64,000 nt of DNA from Dehalogenimonas sp. 4OHTPN (lineage in GTDB: Bacteria; Chloroflexota; Dehalococcoidia; Dehalococcoidales; Dehalococcoidaceae), in contig NZ_CP159307.1 of the NCBI RefSeq assembly GCF_040448695.1, positions 744,001 through 808,000 on the forward strand, written 5' to 3'. The notes under the pieces are model-generated. The model was given only the letters and a program-made list of their open reading frames with translations. It made no database searches and was not told the origin of the DNA. Below are positions 17,207 through 42,501 of the stretch, one piece after another (the first letter of the stretch is position 1; each line of letters starts with the position of its first letter). The position numbers were made by a program, and so were the translations under genes.

Positions 17207-17568
17207 GCCAAGCCGAGCGGGCAGCCGCCGGGGCCTTCGGGCCCGGGAGGAAAGTCCGAGCTCCGACGGACAGGGTGCCGGGTAACGCCCGGGAGGGGCG
17301 ACCCTACGGAAAGTGCCACAGAAACATACCGCCAGCGGTCCTTAGGGATGCGGGCAAGGGTGAAATGGCGAGTTAAGAGCTCACCGGCGGGCGGGAGACC
17401 GTCCGGCCGTGAAAACCCCACCCGGAGCAAGGCCAAATAGGGGGACTTAAGGCGTGTCCGCGCTGTTCCCGGGTTGGCCGCATGATCCCGCCGGTAACGG
17501 CGGGGCTAGATAGATGGCTGCCGTCCTTCTTTGAGGGATACAGAACTCGGCTTACAGCTCGGCTTGGC
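17207..17568 (+). ncRNA. rnpB: RNase P RNA (bacterial type A)
   Basis: Catalytic RNA that removes 5' leaders from pre-tRNAs. The ends form a 12-bp P1 helix (17207-17218 with 17557-17568). Conserved elements in order are GAGGAAAGTCCGAGCTCC (CR-I), ACAGAAACATACCGCC (CR-II), GGGTGAAATGGCG, GCAAGGCCAAATAGGGG, AGATAGATGGCTGCC (CR-IV/P4 side) and GATACAGAACTCGGCTTACA (CR-V). Length is about 362 nt. Confidence 0.96.
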
Positions 17569-17763
17569 CTTGAATATTAACATCCTTCCCCTTAGCCACG
17601 CGTCCAGACTGCCTCGACAGTTTCAATTATTGACGCCTCAGAGCGGGCTTGTCCAGGGTAGCACAGCGTGATGATAGCGAAAGATAGAGATAGCGGCGGT
17701 CTGGATACTGAACAAAGGCTATGACATCAGGCGCTGGATGCCTCTATTTCCATTTATTCGTTC
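17569..17763. other. Intergenic region after rnpB
   Basis: No gene or recognisable structured element seen. There is no clear T-run terminator directly after rnpB. Confidence 0.4.
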
Positions 17764-34177: not shown

Positions 34178-34290
34178 TTTTGGAGCTTCAATCGTGGAAA
34201 GCGGAATGGTATTTTGGTAAGATATGGAATTTCCGAAGGCAATGGGTGGCCCAGCTTTGTCTGGATTCACCAACAAGGATTCAGACGCTG

Positions 34291-35718
34291 ATGCAGAAGG
34301 CTCAGAACAAAGCGCTACGTGAGAGATCTCTGTTCATCAGAGAGGCACTGGTATTTTTCAGCCTTGTTCGCCAGTACTGGCCACTGATATTGTCCATTGG
34401 CCTATTCTTCGGCTGGCTTCTGTCTTATCCTATGCAAGGGCCTATACTGGGGTCTGCTGCGGCTGCTGAGGGGGCTAATCCGCTGTTGCCTATTGTTCGT
34501 TTTCTTGCCGGCATCATCGTCGGTCAGATAGCGTTCGGGATACTCGGGTACTATTTTCAAAAGGCTCTCCGGTGGTTCGCGCTCAGTGGCTTTCTCTGCC
34601 TCTTGTGTAGTGTCGCGGCTTTGAACACGCCGATGGCAAATTCAGAATCTCTATTCGCTTTGATGGGCTTGGCTTCCGCACCGTTGATCATAAGCTGGGG
34701 TGCTGCCTTCACCCGGTCGGTTCTGCCCAATCAGAGGGGACGGGTCTTGGTGAGCGCTATAGCGCTGTCAAACATAATCTTATATATCATAATCCAGGCC
34801 AGCGCGGTGCTGTCATCAGATACTCTCGTACTGCTCACCCTGCCTCTGCTAGTACTGGCACCGATGGCGCTATTCTATAGTTACAGCCAAATCGCTATGT
34901 TGCCGCCGCCAACGCCTGAAGTCCCGGCAAAACTGTTTTCCTTCTGGCCACTGCTGCCTTTCGTGTTCGCCGTCTATATCGTAGGCGGACTGATGTACAC
35001 CATCATTTCCACCAGTTGGGCTGGATCCGGCATAAGTGCGGTATATAGCGTTATTCCCTACATCGTGCTGGTCTTTATAGCTGGTTCGATCGCCGACCGC
35101 CGCGGCCGTCGCGTGAACGCCATACTGGGCACCGGCATCCTCGGCGTAGGCTTCATGCTTTACGGCATATCCGGAGGTATCATGCTGCCCATCGTCATCC
35201 ATACTCTGGTCGTTGGCGGGTTTGCCTTCATGGATACCTTTACATGGACGGTACCGGCGGACCTAGCCACGGGACGGCGAGCTCCGGTGTTCTATGGGGG
35301 CGTCCTGGGCGCTAACGTCATTGCTATTCTCATAGGTATCCTGCTGGGCGAACAGCTTGGCGATTCCATAAGTGAGGCTCTGGTATTGACTGTCAGCGTC
35401 GCCGGCCTTTTGTTGTTCGCATCCCTGGCATTCCTACCGAAGTTGGCAGAAACGCTCACACGCAATATTGCGCCGGAACTATCGATTTCCGAAAAAATTA
35501 CGAAAGTGTTTCAGCGTGCCGGGCTGACGCCGCGTGAACTGGAGGTCGCCGGGTTGGTAGTGACCGGCGCCAGCACAGAGGAGATGCACGAGCATCTGTA
35601 TATTTCCCCCGATACGCTCAAAAGCCATCTGCGTAACATCTATCGTAAACTCGGGGTTAAAAACCGTCTGGAGATGACACAGAGATTATTAAACAGTAGT
35701 TTTGATGAATTTTCATAA
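34291..35718 (+). CDS. Membrane-bound LuxR-type transcriptional regulator
   Basis: 475 residues from ATG 34291. Residues about 20-395 are polytopic, with around 12 membrane helices and an MFS-like loop SIADRRGRRVNAILG. The C-terminal 65 residues are a LuxR helix-turn-helix (LTPRELEVAGLVVTG, YISPDTLKSHLRNIYRKLGVKNR). This suggests a one-component sensor that regulates from the membrane. Starts at 34180 (TTG) and 34246 (GTG) are also in frame but lack a good ribosome site; AAGGA lies 11 bases before 34291. Divergent from the MBG protein gene and upstream of the repeat surface protein, it is the natural candidate regulator of either. The signal is unknown. Confidence 0.85.
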   Translation: MQKAQNKALRERSLFIREALVFFSLVRQYWPLILSIGLFFGWLLSYPMQGPILGSAAAAEGANPLLPIVRFLAGIIVGQIAFGILGYYFQKALRWFALSGFLCLLCSVAALNTPMANSESLFALMGLASAPLIISWGAAFTRSVLPNQRGRVLVSAIALSNIILYIIIQASAVLSSDTLVLLTLPLLVLAPMALFYSYSQIAMLPPPTPEVPAKLFSFWPLLPFVFAVYIVGGLMYTIISTSWAGSGISAVYSVIPYIVLVFIAGSIADRRGRRVNAILGTGILGVGFMLYGISGGIMLPIVIHTLVVGGFAFMDTFTWTVPADLATGRRAPVFYGGVLGANVIAILIGILLGEQLGDSISEALVLTVSVAGLLLFASLAFLPKLAETLTRNIAPELSISEKITKVFQRAGLTPRELEVAGLVVTGASTEEMHEHLYISPDTLKSHLRNIYRKLGVKNRLEMTQRLLNSSFDEFS

Positions 35719-36040: not shown

Positions 36041-36063
36041 AGTAAGGTTTAGTAAGGTTTAGT
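36041..36063 (+). repeat. Tandem 10-bp repeat beside the leader promoter
   Basis: AGTAAGGTTT occurs twice head-to-tail followed by AGT, ending 4 bp before the -35 box at 36068. The 10-bp period, one DNA turn, is what a regulator binding one face of the helix would need. Confidence 0.6.
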
Positions 36064-36067
36064 CATC

Positions 36068-36096
36068 TTGACTTCAGCTATACGCGGCTTTAGTAT
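36068..36096 (+). promoter_or_regulatory. Promoter of the attenuator leader and giant repeat protein
   Basis: TTGACT (36068-36073), 17-bp spacer, TAGTAT (36091-36096). Start near 36103, about 11 nt before the first leader peptide ATG and about 435 nt before the main gene. Confidence 0.7.
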
Positions 36097-36113
36097 GGAA
36101 TATCCAGGAGGCT

Positions 36114-36176
36114 ATGACCCGGCGCCCCCTATCTGGTCACTTGGGGCCCGGCGAGCCAGCAGTGAAACCGGCCTGA
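36114..36176 (+). CDS. Leader peptide A, 20 residues
   Basis: ATG 36114 has AGGAGG two bases upstream. The product is MTRRPLSGHLGPGEPAVKPA. The TGA (36174-36176) lies in the loop of the intrinsic terminator of element A, so a ribosome finishing the peptide would cover the terminator's 5' arm. It shares GHL, GEP and VKPA with leader peptide B. Whether the peptide or the RNA is what is conserved cannot be settled from two copies. Confidence 0.55.
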   Translation: MTRRPLSGHLGPGEPAVKPA

Positions 36177-36196
36177 TAACGGCCGGTTTTTCTTTT
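36118..36196 (+). promoter_or_regulatory. Attenuator element A (first copy)
   Basis: Helix 1 pairs CCGG (36119-36122) with 36148-36151 and GCCCC (36124-36128) with 36143-36147, displaying the loop sequence CTGGTCACTT. A terminator follows: ACCGGCC (36167-36173) with GGCCGGT (36181-36187), then TTTTCTTTT. An alternative pairing of GGTCACT (36135-36141) with AGTG..ACC (36161-36169) would use the terminator's 5' arm. The two states exclude each other, as in riboswitches and translational attenuators. No known riboswitch class was recognised. Confidence 0.65.
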
Positions 36197-36370
36197 GGAG
36201 GAGGAGAAACCGCCGCCCGCGGCATTTGTAAAGATTCCGTATCCTCGACGGCGAAATTACATGGACTTACGGATACTGCGCAGCATTAGGCAGCCGTTAC
36301 AATTTCAAAGAATGAGGAGGTGAAGCTGAACAAAATCATCTGACTGCATTTATCCGCCTGACAGGAAGCC

Positions 36371-36439
36371 ATGATCCGCCCCTCCGTAACTGGTCACTTG
36401 GAGGACGGGGAGCCAGTAGTGAAACCGGCCTGGGACTAA
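36371..36439 (+). CDS. Leader peptide B, 22 residues
   Basis: ATG 36371 follows AGGA by a few bases. The product starts MIRPSVTGHLEDGEPVVKPA and ends with two further residues, Trp-Asp. TAA (36437-36439) lies in the loop of terminator B. It aligns with leader peptide A over all 20 positions without gaps, with 12 identical residues (GHL, GEP, VKPA). Confidence 0.55.
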   Translation: MIRPSVTGHLEDGEPVVKPAWD

Positions 36440-36456
36440 AGGTCGGTTTTTCGTTT
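36376..36456 (+). promoter_or_regulatory. Attenuator element B (second copy)
   Basis: Helix 1 is CCG (36376-36378) with CGG (36406-36408) and CCTCC (36381-36385) with GGAGG (36400-36404). Compared with copy A the paired bases differ but pairing is kept, while the loop CTGGTCACTTGG is unchanged. Terminator: ACCGGCC (36424-36430) with GGTCGGT (36441-36447), then TTTTCGTTTT. The main gene starts 82 bp after this T-run, so terminator read-through is required for expression from the 36068 promoter. Confidence 0.65.
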
Positions 36457-36537
36457 TCTAAAAGAAGGAAGGTGAGTTACAGACACAAAACGGCAACCCC
36501 TGACCCAACACACGAGCAAACGGAGGAGGTTTGAAAC

Positions 36538-39500
36538 ATGAAAAGGGTCTTGAAAAGGTTATTCTCAGTTCTTGGAGTATTTGCGACACTTTCGGCTATT
36601 CTCATTCCAGCTTTGGCAGCACCGGTCAGTGCCGCCCCATCGGGGGTCGGTGCTGATTTCTACGGCTGGAATCTGGATTCCCCGCGGGGTACCTACCCCG
36701 GTTGGGCAGGTGACTGGACCAAAGGTAACCTCGGCAGCCTTTATCGGGAAGGCGACTGGGTTTCCTACGTCTTCATCTTGACCAATAAAAGCGGCGCCGC
36801 CGTCACCCCGGAACAGATCAGCGGCGTTGCTGGATCCTGGGGCAATATATATTATGACTTCTTCAACAGCGGTAAGAATGCCGTTTTTGTGGATCTACTT
36901 CGAAATTTCAGATATTTGGAAGTGAACCCTATTGGGGGCAGTGGGAAACCGAGCAACACTACCTACAATCCCTCAACTGACCTTGGATTGGGGACTGCTT
37001 TCACACCGAGTATCTTGAATGCGCCTTTCCCGGCGGGAACATCTGAAACCGCCGCGGCTCCAGCCGCCAGCCACTACTTCAGTCTCAACGCTGGTGCCGG
37101 CGGATTGCCTACTTCATTGCCCTCCAACAAAGCCTTTTTAATTTTCTTTGAAGCCCATCTCTCTCAGACCTTTGTCTGGGGCCAGGGGCAGGAAAACCTG
37201 TTCAATCAATCCCCGACCAATGCCTGGGGTGGTTCTGCTTATGCTGGCTGGACCGCCACCCACAACGGTTCCGGTTTTACCTCCGGCTCAAGCCCCCACT
37301 TCAACTTTGACGCCCCCGGCTTCGGGGCAATCACAGTCCCCATCCCTATCCCTGAACAACCCGGATCTTCAATCTCGGGCTACAAGTACAATGACTTGAA
37401 CGGAAATGGATCCGACAACAGTGAACCCCGTTTAGCTGGATGGGAGATCAACCTACATATCTATATTGAAAGTATAGAGTTCACCCGGACAACTACTACT
37501 GCAGCCACTACTGGGGCTTATTCATTCACGGGCTTGCCTCCTGGACAATATACAATCCATGAAGTGCTTCAGAATGGTTGGATGCAGACTCAACCTGTTA
37601 CTGCAGAGGTGGTAATCGACATTACTACCAACTCCCAGTCGGCGACGCAGGTGTTTGGCAACTTCCAGCCAAACCCCGGCATCGCCATCGTTAAGACTGT
37701 TACCCCCACCTCCGTATCCGCCCCCGGCAACGTAACATATACCTACGTTGTCACCAACACCGGCAACGTTCCATTGAGCAGCGTTTCCGTTAAAGATGAC
37801 AATGCTACGCCGGGCAACACGGCTGACGACTTCTTTGCTACCTACGTCAGCGGCGATACCAACGGCAACAGCAAACTTGATCTGACTGAGTCCTGGACGT
37901 TCACCGCCACCCGCGGCATAACTCAAGACATGATTGATTCCGGCGCCGCCCGAACTAACATTGGTACGGCAACCGGCACTCCACCCGTCGGCGGCAACGT
38001 TACTGCTACCGACGACGCCACGGTGACCATTGTTCAGAACCCGGCCTACACCATTGACAAGACGGTGGTATCGGTGACTGGTGGTAGTGGTGGCTCGGCT
38101 GATTCCGCCGGTGACATCATCAACTACCAGGTGGTCCTGACCAACACTGGCAACGTCACTCTGACCTCCATCACCATGGCTGACACTCTGGTGACCCTTG
38201 GCGCTCCGACCAGCAAGTCGGCCAATGAGGATAATGATCTCGACGTCGGTGAGTCTTGGACCTGGACCTACAGCTACACCGTGACTCAGGCTGACCTTGA
38301 CAACAAGGGCGGCGGAGACGGTGACATCGACAACACTGCCACCGGGGACTGCGCTGAGCTTGACCCGATCAGTGACAGTGAGGACGTACCGCTGGTCTTC
38401 AACCCGGCCTACACCATTGACAAGACGGTGGTATCGGTGACTGGTGGTAGTGGTGGCTCGGCTGATTCCGCCGGTGACATCATCAACTACCAGGTGGTCC
38501 TGACCAACACTGGCAACGTCACTCTGACCTCCATCACCATGGCTGACACTCTGGTGACCCTTGGCGCTCCGACCAGCAAGTCGGCCAATGAGGATAATGA
38601 TCTCGACGTCGGTGAGTCTTGGACCTGGACCTACAGCTACACCGTGACTCAGGCTGACCTTGACAACAAGGGCGGCGGAGACGGTGACATCGACAACACT
38701 GCCACCGGGGACTGCGCTGAGCTTGACCCGATCAGTGACAGTGAGGACGTACCGCTGGTCTTCAACCCGGCCTACACCATTGACAAGACGGTGGTATCGG
38801 TGACTGGTGGTAGTGGTGGCTCGGCTGATTCCGCCGGTGACATCATCAACTACCAGGTGGTCCTGACCAACACTGGCAACGTCACTCTGACCTCCATCAC
38901 CATGGCTGACACTCTGGTGACCCTTGGCGCTCCGACCAGCAAGTCGGCCAATGAGGATAATGATCTCGACGTCGGTGAGTCTTGGACCTGGACCTACAGC
39001 TACACCGTGACTCAGGCTGACCTTGACAACAAGGGCGGCGGAGACGGTGACATCGACAACACTGCCACCGGGGACTGCGCTGAGCTTGACCCGATCAGTG
39101 ACAGTGAGGACGTACCGCTGGTCTTCAACCCGGCCTACACCATTGACAAGACGGTGGTATCGGTGACTGGTGGTAGTGGTGGCTCGGCTGATTCCGCCGG
39201 TGACATCATCAACTACCAGGTGGTCCTGACCAACACTGGCAACGTCACTCTGACCTCCATCACCATGGCTGACACTCTGGTGACCCTTGGCGCTCCGACC
39301 AGCAAGTCGGCCAATGAGGATAATGATCTCGACGTCGGTGAGTCTTGGACCTGGACCTACAGCTACACCGTGACTCAGGCTGACCTTGACAACAAGGGCG
39401 GCGGAGACGGTGACATCGACAACACTGCCACCGGGGACTGCGCTGAGCTTGACCCGATCAGTGACAGTGAGGACGTACCGCTGGTCTTCAACCCGGCCTA

Positions 39501-42500
39501 CACCATTGACAAGACGGTGGTATCGGTGACTGGTGGTAGTGGTGGCTCGGCTGATTCCGCCGGTGACATCATCAACTACCAGGTGGTCCTGACCAACACT
39601 GGCAACGTCACTCTGACCTCCATCACCATGGCTGACACTCTGGTGACCCTTGGCGCTCCGACCAGCAAGTCGGCCAATGAGGATAATGATCTCGACGTCG
39701 GTGAGTCTTGGACCTGGACCTACAGCTACACCGTGACTCAGGCTGACCTTGACAACAAGGGCGGCGGAGACGGTGACATCGACAACACTGCCACCGGGGA
39801 CTGCGCTGAGCTTGACCCGATCAGTGACAGTGAGGACGTACCGCTGGTCTTCAACCCGGCCTACACCATTGACAAGACGGTGGTATCGGTGACTGGTGGT
39901 AGTGGTGGCTCGGCTGATTCCGCCGGTGACATCATCAACTACCAGGTGGTCCTGACCAACACTGGCAACGTCACTCTGACCTCCATCACCATGGCTGACA
40001 CTCTGGTGACCCTTGGCGCTCCGACCAGCAAGTCGGCCAATGAGGATAATGATCTCGACGTCGGTGAGTCTTGGACCTGGACCTACAGCTACACCGTGAC
40101 TCAGGCTGACCTTGACAACAAGGGCGGCGGAGACGGTGACATCGACAACACTGCCACCGGGGACTGCGCTGAGCTTGACCCGATCAGTGACAGTGAGGAC
40201 GTACCGCTGGTCTTCAACCCGGCCTACACCATTGACAAGACGGTGGTATCGGTGACTGGTGGTAGTGGTGGCTCGGCTGATTCCGCCGGTGACATCATCA
40301 ACTACCAGGTGGTCCTGACCAACACTGGCAACGTCACTCTGACCTCCATCACCATGGCTGACACTCTGGTGACCCTTGGCGCTCCGACCAGCAAGTCGGC
40401 CAATGAGGATAATGATCTCGACGTCGGTGAGTCTTGGACCTGGACCTACAGCTACACCGTGACTCAGGCTGACCTTGACAACAAGGGCGGCGGAGACGGT
40501 GACATCGACAACACTGCCACCGGGGACTGCGCTGAGCTTGACCCGATCAGTGACAGTGAGGACGTACCGCTGGTCTTCAACCCGGCCTACACCATTGACA
40601 AGACGGTGGTATCGGTGACTGGTGGTAGTGGTGGCTCGGCTGATTCCGCCGGTGACATCATCAACTACCAGGTGGTCCTGACCAACACTGGCAACGTCAC
40701 TCTGACCTCCATCACCATGGCTGACACTCTGGTGACCCTTGGCGCTCCGACCAGCAAGTCGGCCAATGAGGATAATGATCTCGACGTCGGTGAGTCTTGG
40801 ACCTGGACCTACAGCTACACCGTGACTCAGGCTGACCTTGACAACAAGGGCGGCGGAGACGGTGACATCGACAACACTGCCACCGGGGACTGCGCTGAGC
40901 TTGACCCGATCAGTGACAGTGAGGACGTACCGCTGGTCTTCAACCCGGCCTACACCATTGACAAGACGGTGGTATCGGTGACTGGTGGTAGTGGTGGCTC
41001 GGCTGATTCCGCCGGTGACATCATCAACTACCAGGTGGTCCTGACCAACACTGGCAACGTCACTCTGACCTCCATCACCATGGCTGACACTCTGGTGACC
41101 CTTGGCGCTCCGACCAGCAAGTCGGCCAATGAGGATAATGATCTCGACGTCGGTGAGTCTTGGACCTGGACCTACAGCTACACCGTGACTCAGGCTGACC
41201 TTGACAACAAGGGCGGCGGAGACGGTGACATCGACAACACTGCCACCGGGGACTGCGCTGAGCTTGACCCGATCAGTGACAGTGAGGACGTACCGCTGGC
41301 CTTCAACCCGGCCGTTGATATCGAGAAATTTGTCTCGGTTGACGGTGGCGTAACTTGGCTAGACGCTGACTCAGCGCTAGGGCCGTATGTTTTAGTTGGT
41401 GATTCTGTTAAGTTTAAGGTCATCGTCACCAATACAGGCAACGTTACTCTTGGAATTGGGGTAGTTGATACTGACTTTACTTTCGCCGGTATCGTCACAT
41501 CGCTTGCTCCTGGCGCCTCTGACGAGAGTGATGTCTTTACCACTACTGCTGTAATAGGACAGCAGTGGGACGAGGCAGTTGTTACCGGTACACCGCTGGT
41601 TGGTACTCCAGTGACCGATAGTGATCGTGCCTACTACTTCGGCGCCTACCCGCACACCACCATGCAGACTATCGCTTACGTGTGGGAGACCTCAGACTTT
41701 GGTAACGTCACCCTCACCATCCGCGATACCAATGACGGCAATGTTCCGCTAACAGGTTCTCACATCCACCTGTATCTAACTCCTGGTGGTGAATACACCG
41801 GTTCGCCTTACGGTCATACCGGGCTTCCGGCCTTCGTTGCCTTCAGTGGTGACACCGGATCGGATGGCATCATGAGCCCCGGTGAGACCTGGCAGTGGAT
41901 AATCCAGGTTGAGATCGCGGTCACCACCACCTTCGATGTTCAAGGTGAAGGCTACTTCACGCCGCTTGACTTCCTGGTCGCCGGCCCAAGCGAGCATGCT
42001 AGCCTGACCGTTCAGGTCAACCTGGCTACCCGTACCCAGGGCTTCTGGTCAACCCATCTGGCGTTCACCACCCAGATCTTCAACTCGATGGATACCTTGC
42101 CGCTTGATGACACAAACGTCGTTATCGATTTGGGTTACAAGCAGATCAGAACAATCGACGAGTTGATGGGCATCTTCTGGGCTAACAACGCCAAGAACGC
42201 AGATGGTTCTAAACGCGACAAGCTTGGACAGGCACGTGAAACCGCCGCTCAACAGGCGCTGGCAGCCATTCTTAACAGCGTCATGCCGGGTGGTAAGCCG
42301 CTGCCTGCCGGGTACAGCTTGACTGACATCAAGAACGTCCTCGGTGGTACAAACCAAAATGCCATCAAGGCTCTTGGTTCAGCTCTTGATGCCTTCAACA
42401 ACAGCGGTGATAATGTCGCCCTGCCTCCGGGCACAGTCACCGGCAAAGCTGATCCCAACGGTGCCAGAGATATCGCGGACATTGGGTTCGCTGACACCTG

Positions 42501-42501
42501 A
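36538..42501 (+). CDS. Giant secreted protein with nine identical 121-residue repeats
   Basis: 1987 residues. A Sec signal peptide (LKRLFSVLGVFATLSAILIPALA as a basic-hydrophobic run ending AAPVSAAP) opens the protein. Residues 45-275 form a unique N-domain; residues about 280-380 are an SdrD B-like domain (SISGYKYNDLNGNG, YSFTGLPPGQYTIHE); about 381-500 is a DUF11/DUF7507-type repeat (VTPTSVSAPGNVTYTYVVTNTGNV). Residues 501-1589 are nine 121-residue repeats of the same fold. A further divergent repeat and an approx. 180-residue C-domain (TRTQGFWSTHL) follow, with no membrane anchor or sorting signal. Likely an S-layer or matrix component. GGAGGAGG lies 8 bases before the ATG; expression is behind the tandem attenuator. 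Confidence 0.9.
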   Translation: MKRVLKRLFSVLGVFATLSAILIPALAAPVSAAPSGVGADFYGWNLDSPRGTYPGWAGDWTKGNLGSLYREGDWVSYVFILTNKSGAAVTPEQISGVAGSWGNIYYDFFNSGKNAVFVDLLRNFRYLEVNPIGGSGKPSNTTYNPSTDLGLGTAFTPSILNAPFPAGTSETAAAPAASHYFSLNAGAGGLPTSLPSNKAFLIFFEAHLSQTFVWGQGQENLFNQSPTNAWGGSAYAGWTATHNGSGFTSGSSPHFNFDAPGFGAITVPIPIPEQPGSSISGYKYNDLNGNGSDNSEPRLAGWEINLHIYIESIEFTRTTTTAATTGAYSFTGLPPGQYTIHEVLQNGWMQTQPVTAEVVIDITTNSQSATQVFGNFQPNPGIAIVKTVTPTSVSAPGNVTYTYVVTNTGNVPLSSVSVKDDNATPGNTADDFFATYVSGDTNGNSKLDLTESWTFTATRGITQDMIDSGAARTNIGTATGTPPVGGNVTATDDATVTIVQNPAYTIDKTVVSVTGGSGGSADSAGDIINYQVVLTNTGNVTLTSITMADTLVTLGAPTSKSANEDNDLDVGESWTWTYSYTVTQADLDNKGGGDGDIDNTATGDCAELDPISDSEDVPLVFNPAYTIDKTVVSVTGGSGGSADSAGDIINYQVVLTNTGNVTLTSITMADTLVTLGAPTSKSANEDNDLDVGESWTWTYSYTVTQADLDNKGGGDGDIDNTATGDCAELDPISDSEDVPLVFNPAYTIDKTVVSVTGGSGGSADSAGDIINYQVVLTNTGNVTLTSITMADTLVTLGAPTSKSANEDNDLDVGESWTWTYSYTVTQADLDNKGGGDGDIDNTATGDCAELDPISDSEDVPLVFNPAYTIDKTVVSVTGGSGGSADSAGDIINYQVVLTNTGNVTLTSITMADTLVTLGAPTSKSANEDNDLDVGESWTWTYSYTVTQADLDNKGGGDGDIDNTATGDCAELDPISDSEDVPLVFNPAYTIDKTVVSVTGGSGGSADSAGDIINYQVVLTNTGNVTLTSITMADTLVTLGAPTSKSANEDNDLDVGESWTWTYSYTVTQADLDNKGGGDGDIDNTATGDCAELDPISDSEDVPLVFNPAYTIDKTVVSVTGGSGGSADSAGDIINYQVVLTNTGNVTLTSITMADTLVTLGAPTSKSANEDNDLDVGESWTWTYSYTVTQADLDNKGGGDGDIDNTATGDCAELDPISDSEDVPLVFNPAYTIDKTVVSVTGGSGGSADSAGDIINYQVVLTNTGNVTLTSITMADTLVTLGAPTSKSANEDNDLDVGESWTWTYSYTVTQADLDNKGGGDGDIDNTATGDCAELDPISDSEDVPLVFNPAYTIDKTVVSVTGGSGGSADSAGDIINYQVVLTNTGNVTLTSITMADTLVTLGAPTSKSANEDNDLDVGESWTWTYSYTVTQADLDNKGGGDGDIDNTATGDCAELDPISDSEDVPLVFNPAYTIDKTVVSVTGGSGGSADSAGDIINYQVVLTNTGNVTLTSITMADTLVTLGAPTSKSANEDNDLDVGESWTWTYSYTVTQADLDNKGGGDGDIDNTATGDCAELDPISDSEDVPLAFNPAVDIEKFVSVDGGVTWLDADSALGPYVLVGDSVKFKVIVTNTGNVTLGIGVVDTDFTFAGIVTSLAPGASDESDVFTTTAVIGQQWDEAVVTGTPLVGTPVTDSDRAYYFGAYPHTTMQTIAYVWETSDFGNVTLTIRDTNDGNVPLTGSHIHLYLTPGGEYTGSPYGHTGLPAFVAFSGDTGSDGIMSPGETWQWIIQVEIAVTTTFDVQGEGYFTPLDFLVAGPSEHASLTVQVNLATRTQGFWSTHLAFTTQIFNSMDTLPLDDTNVVIDLGYKQIRTIDELMGIFWANNAKNADGSKRDKLGQARETAAQQALAAILNSVMPGGKPLPAGYSLTDIKNVLGGTNQNAIKALGSALDAFNNSGDNVALPPGTVTGKADPNGARDIADIGFADT
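38038..41304 (+). repeat. Nine tandem 363-bp repeats
   Basis: The AACCCGGCCTACACCATTGA start recurs at 38038, 38401, 38764, 39127, 39490, 39853, 40216, 40579 and 40942: exactly nine units of 363 bp with no indels. The copies read as identical at nucleotide level; the one change I noticed is T to C near 41300 in the last unit (Val to Ala). Each unit encodes one DUF11-like beta-sandwich. The copy number depends on correct assembly. Confidence 0.97.

Follow-up and report, generated by a model that had tools for sequence, protein, structure and literature searches.

A window of 64,000 nucleotides from Dehalogenimonas sp. 4OHTPN (contig NZ_CP159307.1, positions 744,001 to 808,000) contains a giant gene preceded by two related elements in series. 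What do these elements sense, and in which direction do they switch the gene? A preliminary description, made from the letters alone, had noted the pair and the large gene downstream, had placed leader peptides in its title, and had recognised no riboswitch class. The pair and the 5,964-nt gene are as described: a repeat search and alignment across the window gave 82% identity over 71 nt between 36105-36175 and 36362-36432, at a spacing of 257. We are confident that 36098-36456 is a tandem of complete class-II cyclic di-GMP (c-di-GMP) riboswitches within the 5′ leader of a gene for a giant surface protein (Table 1).

Table 1. Features of the tandem leader and its surroundings (window positions unless a genome is named)
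Feature	Position	Strand	Remarks
Direct repeat AGTAAGGTTT-AGTAAGGTTT	36041-36062	+	just 5′ of the -35 box
Sigma-70-like promoter, TTGACT-17-TAGTAT	36068-36096	+	9/12 matches
Riboswitch 1, class-II c-di-GMP aptamer	36098-36181	+	RF01786 58.3 bits, E 2.3e-10
Riboswitch 1, helix P1	36105-36108 with 36172-36175		P2 and P3 in addition
Riboswitch 1, pseudoknot	36135-36141 with 36161-36169
Riboswitch 1, contacts	U37=36134, G39=36136, A61=36158, A69=36166, A70=36167, G73=36170
Terminator 1	36164-36196	+	-16.0 kcal/mol, z -4.3; 5′ arm is the aptamer 3′ strand; end TTTTTCTTTT
Spacer between riboswitches	36197-36354	+	without significant RNA fold
Riboswitch 2, class-II c-di-GMP aptamer	36355-36439	+	RF03169 45.7 bits; RF01786 51.8 bits
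Riboswitch 2, contacts	U37=36391, G39=36393, A61=36415, A69=36423, A70=36424, G73=36427
Terminator 2	36421-36456	+	-16.0 kcal/mol, z -3.3; 5′ arm is the aptamer 3′ strand; end TTTTTCGTTT
Regulated gene, 1987-aa secreted repeat protein	36538-42501	+	5,964 nt; SD GGAGGAGG before the ATG
TACGTA pair, G007	C1:1725033-1725060
TACGTA pair, G003	C1:128631-128668
TACGTA pair, G006	C11:76100-76127

Class and ligand contacts of the two elements

The class that had gone unrecognised is c-di-GMP-II. When the whole window was scanned with Rfam at curated thresholds, RF01786 (c-di-GMP-II) fell on copy 1 and RF03169 (c-di-GMP-II-GAG) on copy 2. A local scan of 701 nt had RF01786 as the top model for both copies: 58.3 bits for copy 1 (E 2.5e-12) and 51.8 bits for copy 2 (E 1.7e-10). 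Copy 1 thus lies above the RF01786 gathering score of 53.5 and copy 2 slightly under it; copy 2 exceeds that of RF03169 (45.7 vs 40). A covariance model that used no sequences but the two copies, as had been proposed, found matches in 21 of 61 genomes of the order, the strong ones being the Rfam c-di-GMP-II loci. The window also holds an ordinary bacterial RNase P RNA of class A at 17209-17570 (RF00010, 294.9 bits).

The assignment gives the parts of the first description their proper names. The elements exist but start about 10 nt earlier than proposed, with P1 formed by 36105-36108 and 36172-36175. The loop called invariant, CTGGTCACTT, is indeed present in both copies; it supplies the 5′ strand of the pseudoknot of class II. 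The pairing of GGTCACT with AGTG..ACC that was called alternative does reuse the terminator strand; it is, however, the conserved, ligand-binding pseudoknot of the class. Likewise, the helix that changes from GCCCC/GGGGC to CCTCC/GGAGG does so as described, but it is P3 of the aptamer.

The ligand contacts listed for structure 3Q3Z include U37, G39, A61, C68, A69, A70, C71, C72 and G73 (PMC7288161). In the Rfam and copy alignments, both copies retain U37, G39, A61, A69, A70, C71, C72 and G73, and C68 is replaced by A68 together with its partner G by U40, a compensated pair. The likeness to the Clostridium acetobutylicum riboswitch (RF01786; 3Q3Z) extends over P1-P3, the pseudoknot and the contact bases, and to the position in a 5′ leader before an adhesin-type target. 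The differences are the clade-wide U40-A68 in place of G-C in the pseudoknot, a GC-rich terminator formed from the aptamer 3′ strand, and the non-clostridial lineage. Because of A69 and the unchanged contact bases, we file both copies as canonical class II and predict that both bind c-di-GMP.

The listing of copy 2 under RF03169 in the whole-window scan, and its score below the RF01786 gathering value, could be taken to mean that the ligands differ, with c-di-GMP for copy 1 and another dinucleotide for copy 2, making the leader a two-input gate. The bases argue otherwise. The GAG consensus is GCGA-G-A-CC-G, whereas copy 2 reads GTGA-A-A-CC-G, with A69 as in copy 1 and in RF01786; the consensus line has GCGAGACCG in RF03169 and GUGCAACCG in RF01786, and both window copies have GUGAAACCG. 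The letters GAG would stand for positions 69, 70 and 73, and the signature (G at position 69, GA-CC-G) is absent from both copies. In other respects the fold is like that of the variant family, whose gathering score copy 2 passes. Copy 2 nevertheless scores higher with RF01786 than with RF03169 (51.8 vs 45.7). Moreover, since copy 1 and another aptamer of the genome, at 986070, also pass RF03169, that model is non-selective in this lineage. With A at position 69 disfavouring a different ligand for copy 2, we consider the two-input gate extremely unlikely.

Relatives, covariation and the downstream gene

Four class-II aptamers lie in the host genome, a single contig of 1,750,158 bases: the tandem pair and those at 986070 and 1609685. 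In the order, 20 of 61 genomes gave matches, with 44 aptamers in total; in the class sample, 44 of 244 genomes did. Tandem pairs with a spacing of 257-272 nt occur in four of the eight genus members (G000, G003, G006 and G007), and closely spaced pairs are also found in G069 and G090 of the class. Two genus members, G001 and G005, have a GGDEF protein and gave no match to the riboswitch class, a point against the present reading.

Covariation had been claimed from the two copies, and it is real. In a set of 41 distinct aptamers with 22 pairs, 16 pairs show changes of both partners, with a covariation score of 0.390 (0.185 when shuffled). Paired cells amount to 92.2%, against 81.9% in shuffled alignments; with slid partners the share is about 45% at most. 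In the pseudoknot 98.6% of cells pair, and there are three compensatory pairs (U-A to C-G, A-U to G-C and C-G to A-U).

The same comparison bears on the leader peptides. Translation-coupled attenuation would have peptides MTRRPLSGHLGPGEPAVKPA and MIRPSVTGHLEDGEPVVKPAWD set terminator formation, and both copies do carry an SD-like AGGAGG or AGGAAG before an ATG and a frame of 20-22 codons. The AGGAGGC..ATGA stretch, however, belongs to the conserved aptamer core, and start codon, frame and length vary across the 44 aptamers. In G007, the nearest orthologue, the first copy reads GTG and is frameshifted and the second reads ATA, yet the RNA pairs persist. The frame that starts at the conserved ATGA arises simply from the aptamer consensus. 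With start and frame lost across the 44 aptamers, G007 included, we reject the leader peptide and give attenuation by translation practically no credence.

What follows the tandem is conserved in type. All four genus tandems precede a long secreted repeat protein, and those of G000, G003, G006 and G007 all start with a signal-peptide-like stretch. The 1987-aa protein of the window has a signal-like N terminus, 11 DUF7507 stretches, DUF7619, DUF11 and a weak SpaA match; it is probably an adhesin. Among G000, G003 and G007 the downstream proteins share 29-33% identity at the N terminus and 44-55% at the C terminus and have differing middles; in G006 the contig ends within the protein, and the N-terminal match is weak. 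The middles consist of DUF7507 repeats in G000 and G006, and of SdrD_B and SpaA in G003 and G007.

Since most single-copy loci in the order use one riboswitch, the first copy might be decayed or redundant and regulation left to the second. Against this, copy 1 outscores copy 2 on RF01786, its contact bases are intact and its terminator is strong, and both copies are retained in four species. We judge a redundant first copy very unlikely.

Some single aptamers deserve mention in their own right. At 1609685-1609770 of the host genome (L036 9686-9771, minus strand), A replaces the contact G73 and also disrupts a terminator pair (CCAGCC against GGCCGG), which may reflect altered affinity or decay; this aptamer precedes a secreted protein with an InhA-MAM domain. 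In G004 (L043 7278-9062, minus strand) a single class-II aptamer with a terminator stands before a 594-aa GlmS-like gene, whose product has SIS and glutamine amidotransferase domains, an unusual c-di-GMP target. In G041 and G040 (L054 691-1815 and L009 77-1213) the aptamer precedes a gene for a T2SSE/PilT-like ATPase, a call made by Pfam on the G041 protein, to which that of G040 is 66% identical. The arrangement suggests a type IV pilus function under c-di-GMP control.

Terminators, transcription start and the predicted switch

Intrinsic terminators are predicted at 36164-36190 and 36421-36450, one for each copy as had been proposed, and both fold better than shuffled sequence (z -4.3 and -3.3, folding energy being the measure). 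The change of one terminator pair to G-U between the copies was also seen correctly. The 5′ arm of the terminator lies in the aptamer 3′ strand A69-C76 and includes the contacts A69, A70 and G73; the arm at 36165-36173 covers A68, C71 and C72 of the pseudoknot, A69, A70 and G73 of the contacts, and C75-C76 of P1. The shared strand makes the bound aptamer and the terminator mutually exclusive, from which an ON switch is predicted. This design is general: in 42 of the 44 aptamers of the order the terminator follows directly and its 5′ arm is the 3′ end of the aptamer, with the motif AACCGRCC..GGYCGGTTTT, where AACCGRCC is that 3′ end. The energy of free folding, computed without terms for the pseudoknot, favours the terminator and so cannot show the bound state.

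The RNA probably starts at aptamer 1, because a promoter-like site lies just before copy 1 and CATCTTGA at the promoter position is kept in four genomes. Promoter-like matches in the window are not above chance in number. The promoter scan of the window found no second promoter between the copies, and RNA structure was sought in the spacer and was not significant (z about 0.3-0.5).

A direct repeat, AGTAAGGTTTAGTAAGGTTTAG, at 36041-36062 adjoins the -35 box; similar repeats occur at the same position in G007 and G003, and it may be an activator site beside the control by riboswitch. Further upstream of the leader, 34180-35718 encodes a 512-aa protein with an MFS-like membrane part and a C-terminal LuxR-type HTH; in G007 a gene like it was not evident upstream, as judged from the list of open reading frames rather than from domains. 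The riboswitch spacer of G003, G006 and G007 has a pair of TACGTA palindromes, which is decayed in the spacer of the window. In G007 this pair is the only one of its kind genome-wide, and the G003 pair folds into a long hairpin. The pair is possibly a DNA operator.

The proposed mechanism is as follows. The transcript would begin near 36100, and aptamer 1 would be made first. With c-di-GMP bound, the strand AAACCGGCC would be held by the pseudoknot and P1, no terminator would form, and the RNA polymerase would continue. Without c-di-GMP, AAACCGGCC would pair with GGCCGGTTT and transcription would stop at 36190-36196. Aptamer 2 would impose a second, identical decision, with a stop at 36450-36456. 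Full read-through would need both aptamers occupied, which would make the gene an ON target of c-di-GMP with low leakiness and a steep response. That the ligand switches the gene ON is our inference from the shared strand and from analogy. The predicted direction is consistent with the class-II riboswitches of C. difficile, which are transcriptional ON switches with adhesins among the controlled genes (PMC11477304).

A steep switch is also what published tandem c-di-GMP riboswitches lead one to expect (PMC4759541, PMC9481103). For c-di-GMP-II, 59 doublets and 9 triplets have been described and called pseudo-cooperative, most of them standing before COG4932 surface-anchor genes in Paraclostridium (PMC9481103). 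The present locus has that architecture: one leader carries two complete aptamers of the same class, a terminator following each, serially before a large surface protein (with weak SpaA here). It differs in belonging to a probable Dehalococcoidia genus and in its DUF7507 repeats (SdrD_B/SpaA in relatives). In Bacillus thuringiensis, the triple-tandem c-di-GMP-I riboswitch Bc3-5 before the cspABCDE surface proteins was measured to respond more stringently and digitally than a single copy (PMC4759541). Bc3-5 is likewise a series of ON switches (ON being predicted here), although it is of the unrelated class I and has three copies. The arrangement reported here is therefore not new in kind; it is a new example in a new lineage, the Dehalococcoidia.

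Ligand supply and meaning for the lineage

The host genome encodes one GGDEF-domain protein. It has GGEEF together with the RxxD motif of an inhibitory site, and in its HD-GYP domain the HD and HHE..DGTGYP motifs are intact. Two further HD-GYP-type proteins are present, and searches of the genome for EAL and PilZ gave no matches. As the GGEEF/HD-GYP enzyme is intact, it is plausible that c-di-GMP is made in the host. Each of the four class-II riboswitches of the genome stands before a secreted protein of surface type, the tandem pair before the largest. One bifunctional enzyme, no PilZ or EAL matches, four riboswitches and a small genome (1.75 Mb) raise the thought, to us tentative and rather doubtful, that in this probably organohalide-respiring lineage c-di-GMP is read out mainly by RNA, in an adhesion circuit that would be nearly RNA-only. 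In the parts of the literature available to us, we found no paper describing c-di-GMP riboswitches in Dehalogenimonas or Dehalococcoides.

In sum, a supposed unknown riboswitch class is removed and a testable prediction stands in its place: c-di-GMP would turn on giant repeat surface proteins through two serial terminators in probable organohalide respirers. The published pattern of tandem class-II riboswitches before surface anchors is extended from Clostridia to Dehalococcoidia. Finally, the locus may offer a handle on the timing of attachment and aggregation, which would be of practical use for bioremediation cultures.
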